DNA of 34,595 bases from Dissophora ornata. Lineage: Eukaryota; Mortierellomycota; Mortierellomycetes; Mortierellales; Mortierellaceae. Location: NCBI GenBank assembly GCA_025201705.1, contig MU616871.1:1022-35616 (forward strand), in the 5' to 3' direction. Under the pieces are notes generated by a model, which ran no database searches, had not been told where the DNA came from, and was given only the letters and a program-made list of their open reading frames with translations. Positions 229 through 6,016 of this stretch are shown in pieces; the stretch's first letter is position 1, and every line of letters starts with the position of its first letter. Made by a program: the position numbers and the translations under genes.

Positions 229-3200
229 TTACGACTGTGCTTTCTGAAACTTCTCTGTCGTGTTCTCCTTACTAATCTGTAAGAAATACTGATTGAGTGA
301 ACCAGCACGATTAATTCTCTCTTTGATTTTTAGTATTCCCGCCTCTTTTCTCAGATCCAACGTCGGTCCTTGCGCTTCCGAAATAGCCTTCAGTACCGAC
401 TCAATGATCAGTCGATTGAAGGCATAATGCTTTCGAACCGCAGCGTGTGCATTCTTGCGCCACTTGTAGTACTTGTTCATCTGCAAAATCGAAGGCTCTC
501 CGTCAACCCCATGAAACCATTCTTGCCAAACTAGATCAATGACGCGCGGACGGCGCTTCATGGTGTATGTAGAAGTGGCGGGCTTATCCCGCGGCCCTGC
601 CAGTTGATCCGCCAAAGCCTCCAGGTCATCCATTGCTCGTCGAGAATTTACTGGTAAGGCTTCTATTGAGGGTAGCTGAGACTGTAGTTGCAGCGGAGAT
701 GGAGAAGGTGGATGTGAGGAAGGTAGAGGCGAAGAAGGCAGAGGCGAAGAAGGTAGAGGCGAAGAAGGTAGAGGCGAAGAAGGCAGAGGCGAAGAAGGTA
801 GAGGCGAAGAAGGTGGAGGCGAAGAAGGTGGAGATGGAGAAGGCGATCGATTTTCCCATTGTCGCGAATGGGATAGCGATGGATTCATTCGTTGATCTGG
901 CTGCAATGATCGTGGCTGATGTGATGGTGGAAGAAGAGAAGACGGCATGTCTGGCACGTATGGCAATGGTGATGTCGGTTGTATTTGCGTCGTTGCAATC
1001 TCTGTTGTAGCCACGAGCTCAACTGCAGTGGTCAAGAGCCGCATTTGGATCTGGTGAAATGCACTCATGTTGCCTAATATATTGTTGTTTATCGAAATCA
1101 AGCTGTTGAGCATAGCAACGAGGTCGCCCCTCATATGATCCACTTGCCGTCCTATTGATGCCGACCAAACTCCAATGTCACGCTGCATGTTGGCTGACGA
1201 GGGCATTGTTTTTAGCAAGTCTGACACAGCCGTCATTTTCTCAGAAATATCCCGAAGATCGTACTGAATGGCTGGAGCGTTAGCAGGGAGACTGTCCGTG
1301 ATAGGTGGTTTTAAAGTGGCCATCTTTTCGCGCAAAGCAGCCCGGAACTGAATGAACAAAGGCGACCTGAAGACTGGTTGAAGGAAAATCCGATGGAGGT
1401 AATATTGACATTGTGGGTCGCTGTTGATTTCCATAAGGGCGGCAGCGTCCTGCAAGATGACCTTGCGCAGATGAGCGAGTATGATAAAGAATTTGATCTT
1501 TTGGGATTCATGCTGTGGGTACTTTGCTGTAGACCTCTGATCTAATCCACGGTCATTATGTTCATCCTTTTCCGTCATGATATTCTCCATCCAAGTCTCC
1601 CAGTCTTTGTCCAGATATGCATCGTTAAGGACGGGGAAGACGAGCTTTTGGAGGTCGACAGGTGGAATGACCGTATTCCTGGCAATCCAAAACCGCTCCT
1701 GATGATGTATAAAGCCGGCCAACTTGAGTGGGACACGCTCTGGAATCTCACTCAAGTAATGCGTGGCGACCCTTTGATTTAGCCAGTTCCCATGCTGTGC
1801 AATCTCCTCGATCGTTGCCCCGGCTGACTGAGTTTGCTGCGCTCCAGCTCGACGACCAACATAAGTGACCTTGGACGATAGGACGTTGGCAGCTTGCATC
1901 TCCGACTTTTGAGCAGTGTAATGCGTGGAGGAGGACATCTGCTGGGTCTGGCTACGTGCAAATACGAGGTAGTGGGTTGCCCAGTCCGGCTTGCTAAAAT
2001 CGGGGCATGTGCGTGGGTCCTGTAGCATTACGAAGCATGTTAACTTAAAACTCCTTACAGCGACAATTTTCCTCCGCAGGAAACATCTTACCATGAACAG
2101 CTCAAACAAATAAAATGCCAAAGAACCCACTGGGCAGATCTCCACGTCCTTGTTTCACACAACCACACCATAAAGCAGCTTCCCGTCTGTATTCGTCTTG
2201 CCTTACAGCATCGTAAGGACAATACCCGGGGTGAACTGTCCTGTGGCATCACTAAATTCGAATGCGTGGAAATTCAGGTCCTGCAGCAAAGCCATCCGCA
2301 TGTTTTCCCCTCGACACATCATGTGGTGGGTCCATGATAAGCTCGGCCGGTCACGGAGCCCGTTCAATTTCCTGAGGTTCTTTTGATCAAGCTGCACATA
2401 GTTGCGTGCCCAGAATGACTTCATCGTGCGCTTGAAACCCTGAGTATTATCCTCTTCAGTGGTCCTGAGACCATGGGACCTCGCTGCCGCCGTGAGACCG
2501 CCTATTAATAGGGAGAAGGAGTTAAGTTTAATAGTAGAACCAAGCTCACGACTGCAGCGCCATGCAGTCCGAGATCAAGCTATTTATCATCTTACCGATC
2601 CTCCGCTCGTATGCCTCCTTGAATGGTCTTGCTATTTTGCGTGGGGACGTCTCTGCTCCTGGCCACACTCCATTTGGTGCCGAAGTTGCCTGCTCATTCC
2701 ACAGATCAACGACAGCCTTGATATAGAAGTCAATCGTCTCAGGCATGTAGTAGTCCCCAAACGCATCAGTCCGGGCTTTCTTTCTGCGCAAAGGTTGAAA
2801 ATCAGGGTTCAAAGGGTCTGGTTCTCCTAACGTAACGTGCAGCGTGTGAATTCGTCACAGCCTCATCTCTGTAGTGATGGCGTGCACACCAAGCCTAAGT
2901 CAGTGTGTCAGAATGAGAACATATCAGACGCCGTGCAATGGAGCAGAAACCAGTCATAGCGTCATTACAACGAAGTGTATCCCAGAACAACACTTACACT
3001 CCAGTGATTTCGGTACTTGTCATATGATTTCAACGTGGTGCGATGTAGGTTGGCGCGGCCTACTTGCTGGGCAGTGAATACAGCATCCGCTTCCTCTCTG
3101 TTATTAATCCTAGCCCACTCCAGATCCGACCGAGACACTGCTAGCGGAGGCGCTCCATTACCGATGCCCAGGCGGGCGGTCAGATTTGTCGCCTCATCGT

Positions 3201-3489
3201 TGCTGTCTACTTGCGGTTGCAGCTCCTTTGATTGTTTCCCTTTTCTTTTGCGCGACGTCGATCCCGATGTGGGCCCGATTTGCGAGGGTGAAATGGACAG
3301 CATTTGGTGTTGATCCTGCGTCTGATGCTCCACTTGCACCTTGGACGACGTTTGTATGGCACCATCATCGTCCTTATCTCCCTGCTCATGGTGTGTGAGG
3401 TATCTCCATCCATTCTCGCTGGTATAAAGCGCGATCTGCTCGTCTGTTTCCTCCGCTTCGTCGTCCACGTCGTCCTGGCTCCCGTGCAA
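229..3489 (-). mobile_element. Degenerate Crypton-like (tyrosine recombinase) DNA transposon
   Basis: The minus strand carries the parts of a fungal Crypton in order: an N-terminal acidic region, the SAM-like module with a W-x-x-W-C motif (near 2885-3005), the segment with YMPETIDFYIKAVVDLW (near 2700-2760), the catalytic tyrosine-recombinase core (about 1740-2330), and a C-terminal Gcr1-like DNA-binding domain (about 250-570). Cryptons are known to move by tyrosine recombinase without terminal inverted repeats or a transposase of the DDE type, so element ends cannot be read from one copy; the span given is the coding remnant only. I saw no flanking inverted repeats. Two stops, a frame slip and a catalytic substitution show that this copy is dead. 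The family call rests on motif recognition; the precise Crypton subgroup is not resolved. Confidence 0.78.
229..3489 (-). pseudogene. Crypton tyrosine recombinase with Gcr1_C domain, broken
   Basis: Reading down the minus strand: first exon from 3489 to 2998, a GT-AG intron 2997-2895, an exon from 2894, a +1 frame slip between about 2840 and 2812, an exon to 2596, an intron 2595-2502, and then one frame from 2501 to 229. That frame is interrupted by TAA at 2205-2203 and TGA at 2157-2155. Both could come from CAA and CGA by single C-to-T changes. A 72-nt stopless GT-AG intron (2091-2020) probably lies inside the last exon; removing it joins LFELFM to DPRTCPDF, as in intact Cryptons. Catalytic features: Arg in MCRGEN at 2313-2311, the H-x-x-R box read as TYVGR with Arg at 1854-1852 but Tyr in place of His at 1863-1861, and the nucleophile Tyr in THYLSEIP at 1758-1756. 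The C-terminal VIDLVWQEWFHGVDGEPSI matches the Gcr1_C domain. Not expected to give an active protein. Confidence 0.75.
716..838. repeat. 15-bp minisatellite inside the Crypton coding remnant
   Basis: About eight head-to-tail copies of a 15-bp unit (plus strand gaagaaggtagaggc, with ggt/ggc and taga/tgga variants). On the minus strand it encodes a Ser-Ser-Pro-Leu-Pro pentapeptide array between the recombinase core and the Gcr1-like domain. Because 15 is a multiple of three, copy-number change would keep the reading frame. It is probably a flexible linker. Confidence 0.9.
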
Positions 3490-3810
3490 AGCAGGAGCAA
3501 CACTGCCGTCGTATACTCGATTGGAACAAAGACTCTGCGTTTCAACTGCATGAAAGAGGAAGCATCAATAAGACAATCATAACAGAAATGTGACATGGAA
3601 CGAGGTACTCGGTACTTCAATTGTAGAGCATGAGTCATCCATCACCTTCGACCGTGGGGATAGCTTGAGGAATAGCCGGTCGAGACTGACTGCTCTCGCC
3701 GACCTTGTCAAGAAGATGTGCAGTGTAAGGATACGAATACGACATACGGTGTCGCGGCTTTATGGCTTAGTTAACGAGGTGCTGGTGGCTCATTAGGCTG
3801 TTGCCAAGGG

Positions 3811-3843
3811 GGCAGAGGGGCAGAGGGGCAGAGAGGCAGAGGG
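3811..3843. repeat. Short GGGGCAGA tandem repeat
   Basis: Four imperfect copies of an 8-bp ggggcaga unit lie just upstream of the Crypton remnant, in a stretch (3490-4108) where I see no convincing gene. No link to transposition could be shown. Confidence 0.7.
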
Positions 3844-4108
3844 TAGATGAGTGAGAGGTTGCGAAGGCTCATGGTGACATGGAGGGAGAGGAATGCACCT
3901 CATGATCACCGTTGCGGGAAAAAAATACATCGTTACATTTTCATCCAACGGTCCAGTGCCTTCAGACACTCAAACCTTCTGCCCTGATGAATATTTCTGG
4001 TTGTGCGCCTTCGTGCGCATTTATTGGTACAGGATTATACTAAGGTACAGAGTATATGTGCTGATGGGGTATGGGTTGAGAGATTGTGCTCCTGGCCATA
4101 TAACGCGT

Positions 4109-4282
4109 TTAGCGGAGGAAAGGACCAGCGGAGGTATTAGGCATTGCCTTCTTGTGGAACATCTCGAGTGCTTGGTCCTGCTTCATCTCGACGACCTGTA
4201 CGAGGCGCTGCTCGTTTATCGAAGATCGGGGAGTGGTGGTGACTGAAGCGGACTGGTTCTTGGATGACCTGAAAAGGGACAT
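4109..4282 (-). CDS. Small protein, paralogue of the divergent gene at 4890
   Basis: A 57-residue intronless reading frame on the minus strand, start ATG at 4282-4280 (context aacATGt, A at -3), stop TAA at 4111-4109. It was found by comparison, being too short for usual ORF cut-offs. The protein begins MSLFRSSKNQSAS and ends HKKAMPNTSAGPFLR. It shares with the gene at 4890 the blocks KNQSAS, TPRSS, EQR, DQAL-x-M, HKKAMPN and SAGPF-x-R in the same order, with a variable Ala/Thr-rich middle. No signal peptide, membrane segment or cysteine is present. It is basic, with a short amphipathic helix likely around the DQALEMFHKKA segment. The upstream 100 nt on this strand is rich in CAAC/ACAA, like the leader of its partner. 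Function unknown; I do not recognise a named family. Confidence 0.82.
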   Translation of the reverse strand: MSLFRSSKNQSASVTTTPRSSINEQRLVQVVEMKQDQALEMFHKKAMPNTSAGPFLR

Positions 4283-4720
4283 GTTTGTAGTGAATGGGGT
4301 GATGGTTTGACTGAGTGAGTGCTGTCTTGTTGGTTGGATGCTCGGAAGCGTTTGTTAGTTTGTAGCTGAAGTTGTTGAAACTGTTGAGTAATCAACCATC
4401 CATGCCGTGAAGTGTGATGCCATGCATTGCGAAGCTTTGCCGAGCACCACACACACACAAACGAAAAGCATTCTCGGCATTGCTTGGCTGCACACTTGGA
4501 CCATATTTGTGCACGACTGATCATCATCTATCGACGGTCGAAAATAATTCGCGCATTGATGTGTTAAAAATTTAAAAAAATTCAGGCGCCGCTGAATTTT
4601 CCCAAGAAAGTGCCGTGCGCGGTTTACTGTGCGCTTCTTGGAACTCCTCCACGATGTTGATCTTCTGTGCAGAATGGTCCATGCTTCACAGGATTAGTCA
4701 AAGGGAACGGTCCCACGCCA

Positions 4721-4732
4721 AGAATATATTCT
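4721..4732. promoter_or_regulatory. Perfect 12-bp palindrome upstream of TATA box
   Basis: AGAATATATTCT is its own reverse complement and lies 17 bp upstream of the TATA box of the small gene at 4890. Two looser TTC/GAA inverted arrangements lie further up (near 4600 and 4639). The spacing between half-sites is 3-4 bp, not the 2 bp of a canonical heat-shock element, so only a general dimeric-factor site is suggested. Confidence 0.35.
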
Positions 4733-4749
4733 AAATAGCCGAGAAGTGA

Positions 4750-4757
4750 TATAAAAG
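4750..4757 (+). promoter_or_regulatory. TATA box of small gene at 4890
   Basis: TATAAAAG, a consensus TATA element 133 bp before the start codon. It is followed by a leader of about 100 nt rich in CAAC and CAAG steps (4780-4860), a form common in strongly expressed fungal genes. This suggests the small gene is actively and perhaps inducibly transcribed. Confidence 0.65.
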
Positions 4758-4889
4758 AGCGCATTTCTGCTCGTCTTCAACTACTCAACCAACAACCAAA
4801 CAACAAAGCAACAAAGCACCAAGCTACCAAGCAACCAAGCAATTACTTCCATCCAAGCCCACAAGCACTCACTCATACATTCATTAACC

Positions 4890-5069
4890 ATGGCCTTCTT
4901 CAAGTCTCCCAAAAACCAATCTGCCTCTGCCGCTGCCTCTCCAGCTGCTACTCCTCGATCGTCGATGCATGAGCAACGCCCAGCAAACACGATGACGCTA
5001 GACCAGGCCCTCCTGATGCTCCACAAGAAGGCGATGCCTAATGCCTCTGCCGGTCCTTTCATCCGCTAA
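4890..5069 (+). CDS. Small protein, paralogue of the divergent gene at 4282
   Basis: A 59-residue intronless frame, ATG at 4890 in a near-ideal context (ACCATGG), TAA at 5067-5069, with an AATAAA signal at 5144-5149. The protein starts MAFFKSPKNQSASAAASP and ends HKKAMPNASAGPFIR. It aligns along its whole length with the minus-strand product at 4109-4282: roughly half of the positions are identical, with the ends best conserved. The genes face away from each other with 607 bp between start codons. A TATA box, leader, Kozak context and poly(A) signal all agree with a real gene. The middle is Ala/Ser/Pro-rich and probably disordered; the C-terminal third could form one helix. No known domain is recognised and no function is claimed. 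Confidence 0.85.
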   Translation: MAFFKSPKNQSASAAASPAATPRSSMHEQRPANTMTLDQALLMLHKKAMPNASAGPFIR

Positions 5070-6016
5070 ACGGACATCCTCTACATCTCCACCGGCATTC
5101 ATCACTCAAATGTACACTATTGCATCACTATCTAGCATTATATAATAAACATAAACAACTAAGTCGCATAAACGCGAGTAATGGAATAATAAGCAACAAG
5201 GAGAGATGACTTGTGAGATCGATAATGAGTCGATCTCACAACACTGTCAGTTGTTTCAATGGGCCCATATCAGGAACCCTAAACACGAGCAAACTGTGCA
5301 TTTGCACAGCATTACAATTCGCGAAAAGATTGACATAGGTATTGCCAACAACCACTCCACGCCTTACCTCGTTGTCTTTTTATGTGTGTACGCATTGCAG
5401 CGGACATTGACCTTCCTATTTTGGTGGAAAACCAGATGCGCTGGTGCCTGCCAGCATTGAGCATGCCTTTGGAGATGGAGGAGCAAGAGCGGGTCTGCAC
5501 GTATTACCGTTGGATTTATAACAAATGGGCAATGCTGATTGACGCCTGTCGTTTGCACTTGAACGAGGATGATTATCCCTCTGTTCCTTCTATTGTCATT
5601 TTTTTATCTCCGCGCCGCATTGGTCCTCAGCTCGCCGCCTTGTGTTTGGAAGCCCCCGTGCCTTCAGGAGTCAAGTGCCGCTTGCATTATATCGAGCCCA
5701 CTCACGTCGAACGCGTTTTTTGCAGTGACAGGGTATGACCAAAGGCTCCAATCAGGAGACGCGATCATGCAGTTCACTGGTAATCTACGCCATTATCTTC
5801 CCCCGATGAAAAGTCTTGTCGACGATATGTGTTTGTTACATGTGGATCAACCTGCAATGACCCTCTCTCCGCAAACAATAGGGCTGCACGCCAAAGTTGT
5901 TAATTAGTACGATGATGCTCTTGTTGTTCTTCCCTTCGCCTTGGGGATGCAGGCGAGGATGAAAATGCATGGATCCTTTTGGGTGAACACGGGTTGAATT
6001 GTTTACAATGATGAAA
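5070..6016. other. Region without a supported gene
   Basis: After the poly(A) signal of the small gene this stretch has only short overlapping frames on both strands. The longest (5382-5738 plus, 118 codons) has no recognisable motif, no clear start context and competing frames of similar length. It could be a decayed gene or plain intergenic DNA. Confidence 0.4.

Follow-up and report, generated by a model that had tools for sequence, protein, structure and literature searches.

Two head-to-head genes in Dissophora ornata, encoding proteins of 57 and 59 residues, belong to a multicopy family of paired, selected small genes. The partners share conserved promoter blocks, and family members lie close to both PacC-like zinc-finger genes of the genome. 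We analyzed the pair, genes A and B, in a stretch of 34,595 nucleotides (the window), for which a preliminary description made from the letters of the DNA was available. Our preferred reading, to which we give slightly less than an even chance, is that a PacC-responsive bidirectional promoter would drive a small, probably phosphorylated, disordered stress protein, the dose of which would be set by copy number.

A multicopy family of divergent small genes

Genes A and B are both intact, with an ATG-to-ATG gap of 607 bp. The preliminary description had placed them exactly (57 aa on the minus and 59 aa on the plus strand), and the blocks KNQSAS, TPRSS, EQR, DQAL, HKKAMPN and SAGPF-x-R occur in both proteins in the order given there. 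Judged by sequence, A and B are clear paralogues of each other. Chance had been called unlikely, and the plus-strand protein indeed matched not only itself and its partner (E 7.7e-13) but 26 more places in the genome (E up to 0.0025). The start contexts are good, i.e., A stands at position -3 of both ATGs, and the poly(A) signal reported earlier is found as AATAAA 3' of both genes. About 2 kb left of the pair, an open frame at window 229-2154 (minus strand) contains NDC10_II and GCR1_C domains; presumably this is a relative of Crypton-like recombinases.

Table 1. Features of the A/B pair and of the region between the two genes (window coordinates).
Feature	Position	Strand	Remarks	Basis
AATAAA downstream of A	4020..4025	-		position scan
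Gene A	4109..4282	-	57 aa, short subfamily, possibly decaying copy	ORF and 10 paralogous A copies
Shared intergenic region (candidate bidirectional promoter)	4283..4889	.	607 bp	ten-pair alignment, median pairwise identity 0.79
Central block TTCTCGGCATTGCTTGGCTGC	4471..4491	.	GCCAAG at 4483-4488 (-) inside	alignment
Window variant of TTTCAGGCACCGC block	4581..4593	.		block also in two deep paralogue pairs on C285
CCAAGAA, Rim101-like site	4602..4608	+		motif count
CCAAGAA, Rim101-like site	4635..4641	-		motif count
GCCAAGAA, PacC/Rim101-like site	4717..4724	+	just 5' of B TATA box	in 9/10 pairs
TATAAAAG, B core promoter (TATA)	4750..4757	+		conserved in alignment
CAAC-rich, nearly unstructured predicted 5' leader of B	4778..4889	+	112 nt	MFE -3.5 kcal/mol
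Gene B	4890..5069	+	59 aa, long subfamily	ORF and 10 paralogous B copies
AATAAA downstream of B	5144..5149	+		position scan

Only one pair had been seen before. We searched the genome (31.4 Mb, 968 contigs) with DNA and protein queries and found ten head-to-head A/B pairs with ATG-to-ATG gaps of 607-731 bp: one on C310, the contig of which the window is a part, two on C524, three on C386 and four on C314, at the end of which there are further truncated family matches. Diverged members are located on C285 (an ORF and two additional divergent pairs), on C386 (at 9132, 11878 and, weakly, 18318), on C468 (one) and on C698 (two). The family hence amounts to about 31 members on seven contigs, i.e., the ten pairs and about 11 others, counts that are lower bounds. 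The total includes two weak members, C285:5081 (best E 0.005) and C386:18318 (E 0.028), and leaves out C386:11047 (E 0.002), the frame of which is unlike that of a member.

None of the 20 paired ORFs is interrupted between ATG and stop. Pooled pN/pS was 0.27 for A and 0.32 for B (ten copies each), and median dN/dS (Nei-Gojobori) was 0.21 within the A set and 0.28 within the B set, with 45 comparisons per set, one per set lacking a synonymous change and one value above 1. Between A and B, the medians were 0.19 for dN and 0.80 for dS. As all ORFs are open and dN/dS is low, we conclude that both frames are proteins and are kept. A dN/dS near 1 had been named as an outcome that would speak against the family; the medians found indicate purifying selection.

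The A copy of the window differs from the others. Nine pairs carry GTATTTATACA, a TATA box pointing at A, which in the window falls within a 75-97 base gap of the alignment; no TATA-like site was found on A's strand anywhere between the window genes. The consensus TATA box described earlier therefore exists for the plus gene (TATAAAAG), and is absent for the minus gene in the window copy. The central CCATTCTTGGCA block, exact in eight of the ten pairs, is missing there as well. Private changes in window A were 8 nonsynonymous and 2 synonymous, compared with 13 and 14, respectively, summed over the other nine A copies, which is suggestive of relaxed selection (Fisher P 0.14). Pairwise pN/pS of 0.23-0.44 between window A and the other A copies speaks against decay. 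On these sequence comparisons, it is likely, not proven, that the window A copy is decaying or losing function.

The A copy at C386:14550 (L010) and those at C314:7048 and C314:10811 (L011, L012) differ by only 3-6 bases. Over the ten pairs, A and B distances were uncorrelated (Mantel r -0.02, P 0.53), and promoter distances gave r 0.40 (P 0.012) with those of A and r 0.27 (P 0.056) with those of B. We had considered the pair as a fixed unit and rejected this: as A and B distances are uncorrelated, the pairs are not simply fixed evolving units. Together with the near-identical A copies across contigs, this may mean that the arrays recently exchanged sequence or converted one another. Family loci at C285 ~3500-3900 (L043) and C698 ~3000-3350 (L046) are flanked by similar frames with a AGGEYGTGRRLPV segment, perhaps a duplicated neighbourhood. 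At C853:8606-8724 (L013 ~1607-1725), an unrelated 113 aa ORF is preceded by 120 bp that match the B core promoter with its CAAC leader at 83% identity; this could be a promoter capture or a fragment insertion.

Family proteins are mostly 57-67 aa long. F4, K8, T21, P22, R23 and S25 are invariant in 48 of 48 chosen members (13 of our own and 35 hand-chosen of 120 listed public ones, a set that leans towards conserved members), and both window proteins align with these. The family core, F4, K8 and TPRxS followed by a (M/L)TxxxA helix segment, is found in both window proteins; C386:18318, a weak own member outside the 48, lacks TPRxS. Conservation of both protein ends, as described earlier, applies to the pair subfamily and does not extend across the 48 members, where the final, C-terminal Arg is kept in only 22. 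AlphaFold2 predicted one helix (residues 37-47) with low confidence elsewhere (mean pLDDT 63.9, pTM 0.26), which fits, and does not prove, a mostly disordered protein. TPRxS comes after further S/T-P positions and looks like a phosphorylation site. Small fungal stress and conidiation proteins of the Con-6 and Hsp9/Hsp12 types are likewise short, hydrophilic and of little structure; unlike these, neither window protein matched any Pfam family up to E 10. NCBIfam had no match at E 1 for either window protein. Over the 48 chosen members, Pfam matches were weak and spread over 13 families (best E 0.0015), and a PDB profile search gave one chance-level match (E 0.43).

Among public proteins, a single-sequence search found 7 relatives and a profile of 21 sequences found 257 (E up to 1); a search with the most divergent own member yielded no further homologues. 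The best 120 of the 257 include 106 with organism names, all of them from Mortierellomycota (13 genera), and 14 without a name. Dissophora is placed in the Mortierellaceae, Mortierellomycota; the other genera we take to belong to this phylum. From the best 120 of the 257 matches, the family is apparently phylum-restricted, and neighbouring locus tags in several other genomes suggest that it clusters there too. A lack of homologues had also been named as counting against the family; those found in Mortierellomycota, together with the purifying selection, establish the proposed small-protein family as real. It is undescribed within the literature searched (titles and abstract openings), where neither locus tags nor a description of the family led to a paper.

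Proteins of Mortierellomycota annotated as 'hypothetical protein' (EDD21DRAFT_444136, MVEG_05143, BG011_007313) belong to the same family by sequence. Their names give no domain or function, and several models have two copies or other 3' ends. That the frames are too short for gene callers is hence right for some members, which were missed, and wrong for the many homologues annotated as 'hypothetical protein', some of them fused or with other 3' ends. Four public D. ornata proteins, P0001, P0004, P0006 and P0007, are identical to other copies in this genome through most of their sequence; P0025 and P0071 are two further family proteins of this species. In the models P0001, P0006 and P0007, other sequence takes the place of the C-terminus read from DNA, probably by false splicing. 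Eleven public models, P0008-P0018 (105-127 aa), have two family copies in one protein and are either true fusions or gene-model artefacts.

The shared region and its PacC/Rim101-type sites

A bidirectional promoter had been implied for the pair, and the divergent arrangement around a shared region is borne out by conservation of this region over the ten pairs (median identity 0.79). As conserved blocks we took runs of at least nine columns, each kept in at least nine of the ten copies. These were the TATA boxes, leader blocks, TTCTCGGCA, TGCTTGGCTGC, CCATTCTTGGCA and GCAGAATGG; the last four lie outside the core promoters, and two of them contain GCCAAG on the reverse strand. TTCTCGGCA is exact in all ten pairs and TGCTTGGCTGC in nine. 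For ATATAAAAG, every column is kept in at least nine of the ten copies and the whole string is exact in seven. The B leader blocks are kept in at least nine copies. Both 112-nt leaders are predicted to be almost unstructured (MFE -3.5 and -3.1 kcal/mol; z-scores -1.1 and 0.5 compared with shuffles). In the two C285 pairs, GCCAAGAATAGA before the TATA box, a central TGCCAAGAATGG and TTTCAGGCACCGC recur. A further conserved block, starting CTGTGCAGAATGG (window 4665-4691 and other pairs), is located upstream of the B TATA box; by eye, it has inverted ends CTGTG...CACAG in four of the ten copies. Divergent histone gene pairs are likewise multicopy and arranged head to head around a shared promoter; unlike these, the family is not one of histones, and its partners are paralogous to each other.

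According to PMC2824755, GCCAAG and CCAAGAA are Rim101/PacC sites; for Aspergillus PacC, PMC3618310 gives GCCARG. We had first spotted CCAAG sites by eye in the alignment and then counted eight patterns against shuffles. GCCAAG occurs 2, 3, 3, 3, 2, 4, 3, 3, 3 and 3 times in the ten pair promoters (shuffle means 0.31-0.49) and four times in each of the two C285 pairs (0.85 and 0.79), with P <=0.01 in eight of the ten pairs and in both C285 pairs. For CCAAGAA, counts were 3, 3, 3, 2, 2, 3, 3, 4, 5 and 4 in the ten pairs and 2 and 2 in the C285 pairs; a GCCAAGAA site scores as both GCCAAG and CCAAGAA. The window promoter has two GCCAAG (P 0.057; GCCARG P 0.11) and three CCAAGAA (0 of 300 shuffles). 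With GCCARG, counts were the same and P weaker, i.e., 0.007-0.16 in the ten pairs and 0.03-0.04 in C285. CCAAT was not enriched. AGGGG stood out in a single pair promoter, with four sites (0 of 300 shuffles), and in front of the C698 member, with five (P 0.003).

We used 594 overlapping 700-bp windows from the rest of the window as controls. At least three GCCAAG were present in 4 of these and in 8 of the 10 pair promoters, and at least two GCCAAG with two CCAAGAA in 11 of 594 and in 10 of 10, respectively, the ten promoters not being independent of each other. Over the entire genome, GCCAAGAA with TATAWAA 15-45 bp behind it was found at 13 distinct places (15 matches, two of them overlaps), nine of which are family promoters; a control pattern for this layout occurred twice. 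Upstream of four single members, we counted 1, 1, 2 and 0 GCCAAG, the first three not significant and the zero in 700 bp upstream of C386:9132. Moreover, only 4 of 2080 hexamers are found upstream of all six lineages (background: the window and 1,000 bases of C285), and GCCAAG is not one of them, which counts against the PacC reading.

Regulation by heat shock was also considered. A perfect three-unit heat-shock element is present in three of the ten promoters, but neither the window copy nor either C285 pair has one, and this candidate was dropped.

PacC-like zinc-finger genes near the arrays

After the motif had been seen, we searched the genome with a PacC-type zinc-finger stretch. The two best matches were C285:17577-17789 (56%, E 3e-22) and C386:7920-8129 (54%, E 5e-21), and the next by E-value was at 29% (E 2e-8). 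Both contigs with strong matches carry family members. On C386, member P0121 lies ~0.95 kb upstream of the start of the PacC-like gene on the same strand, and by eye no gene was recognised between them. On C285, the nearest member found is ~5.6 kb away. Zones reaching 6 kb from any member cover 0.39% of the genome, and the probability of such linkage by chance is 1.5e-5 if the two loci are independent and 0.004 if they are duplicates of one. Each PacC-like gene has GCCAAG in its upstream 700 bp, one of them three copies and the other two.

Over 87 residues at the gene start, the two PacC-like proteins share 74% identity, with near-identical fingers 1 and 2. In both genes, the open frame ends at the third finger, which resumes in another frame with the pattern FKR(P/R)QDLKKH. 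Zap1_zf1 was the only Pfam model above cut-off for both. It matches 17 places in the genome, four of them above cut-off (two in one frame on C683) and 14 outside the two PacC-like genes. Since Zap1_zf1 is this unspecific here, the putative name PacC goes back to the zinc-finger query. A PalH search of the genome gave no match, as did its control query, and a search of titles and abstract openings found no paper on PacC/Rim101 control in Mortierella.

A candidate pH-responsive unit and its rivals

The preliminary description had left the function of the pair as unknown. The sites in the promoter and the place in the genome, which both suggest control by PacC/Rim101, allow this to be narrowed. 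We propose that the pair is one unit of the multicopy family, from which A and B would be transcribed outward from one regulatory region, as a rule with a TATA box of its own on either side. A PacC/Rim101-type zinc-finger factor would read the central GCCAAG/CCAAGAA elements, and as one such factor would read shared sites, ambient pH, or a stress linked to it, would affect A and B jointly. The CAAC-rich, unstructured leaders should load ribosomes easily. The product, with a basic N-terminal segment, TPRxS as a putative phosphorylation site, one short helix and otherwise mostly predicted disorder, may act as a small dose-dependent pH/stress-response protein, with copy number setting the dose. 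Window A, with its TATA box and one central site gone, would probably be losing function. The proposal draws its strongest support from the selection on the frames, from the near-private site layout and from the linkage, which was found after the regulator had been predicted. As in PacC/Rim101 targets of Ascomycota and Basidiomycota, GCCAAG/CCAAGAA lie upstream of the family genes, and it is by these sites that the family resembles targets elsewhere. We know of no related PacC/Rim101 target protein.

A real and selected family could have CCAAG blocks that bind a regulator other than PacC, one of growth phase, development or heat, the linkage being a relic of one ancestral duplication or the linked factors not being PacC. 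We regard this as a serious possibility, with roughly one chance in three. It would account for the few GCCAAG at single members and the absence of this hexamer from those common to all six lineages, and the second shared block, TTTCAGGCACCGC, fits no factor known to us. Should C285 and C386 have arisen by duplication of one locus, the linkage counts once, i.e., ~0.004 and not 1.5e-5. Perfect three-unit heat-shock elements (P 0.01 each in the three promoters) would suit heat as the signal, but they are imperfect in the other seven copies and in C285. Against another regulator stand the GCCAAG-bearing blocks, which rank with the best conserved upstream blocks of the ten pairs and are seen again in C285, and the GCCAAGAA-TATA layout, nearly private to the family.

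The small proteins might also be feedback partners of the PacC pathway and not downstream stress proteins, which we consider improbable. The member ~0.95 kb upstream of a PacC-like gene and the GCCAAG upstream of both PacC-like genes agree with feedback, but by eye we recognised none of the interaction motifs known to us for PacC or its processing factors, and the high copy number suits abundance better than fine regulation. Very improbable is that the pairs are passengers of tandem duplication and gene conversion, i.e., a decaying or near-neutral repeat without present function. The many copies, the near identity of some from different contigs and the state of window A (no TATA box, 8 nonsynonymous against 2 synonymous private changes) might suggest this; against it, all 20 ORFs are intact with pooled pN/pS of ~0.3, residues are invariant over the 48 chosen members and promoter blocks are conserved.

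Orphan small-protein families as a kind are common. Unusual here are the divergent pairing of paralogues, its amplification and the linkage to PacC-like genes. A wider reading of the PacC-responsive unit, which we consider rather unlikely, is that Mortierellomycota possess a module for pH response that other fungi are not known to have. In it, PacC genes would lie inside clusters of their own amplified targets, where dozens of short disordered proteins with divergent PacC promoters would form a dose-tunable pH-stress effector or a PacC feedback. An anonymous pair of tiny ORFs has become part of a selected multicopy family that is widespread and has a candidate regulator open to test; the small genes of the family are partly missed or misbuilt by annotation. 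The family would provide reporter genes for PacC in Mortierellomycota, and it would exemplify linkage between a regulator and an array of its likely targets.
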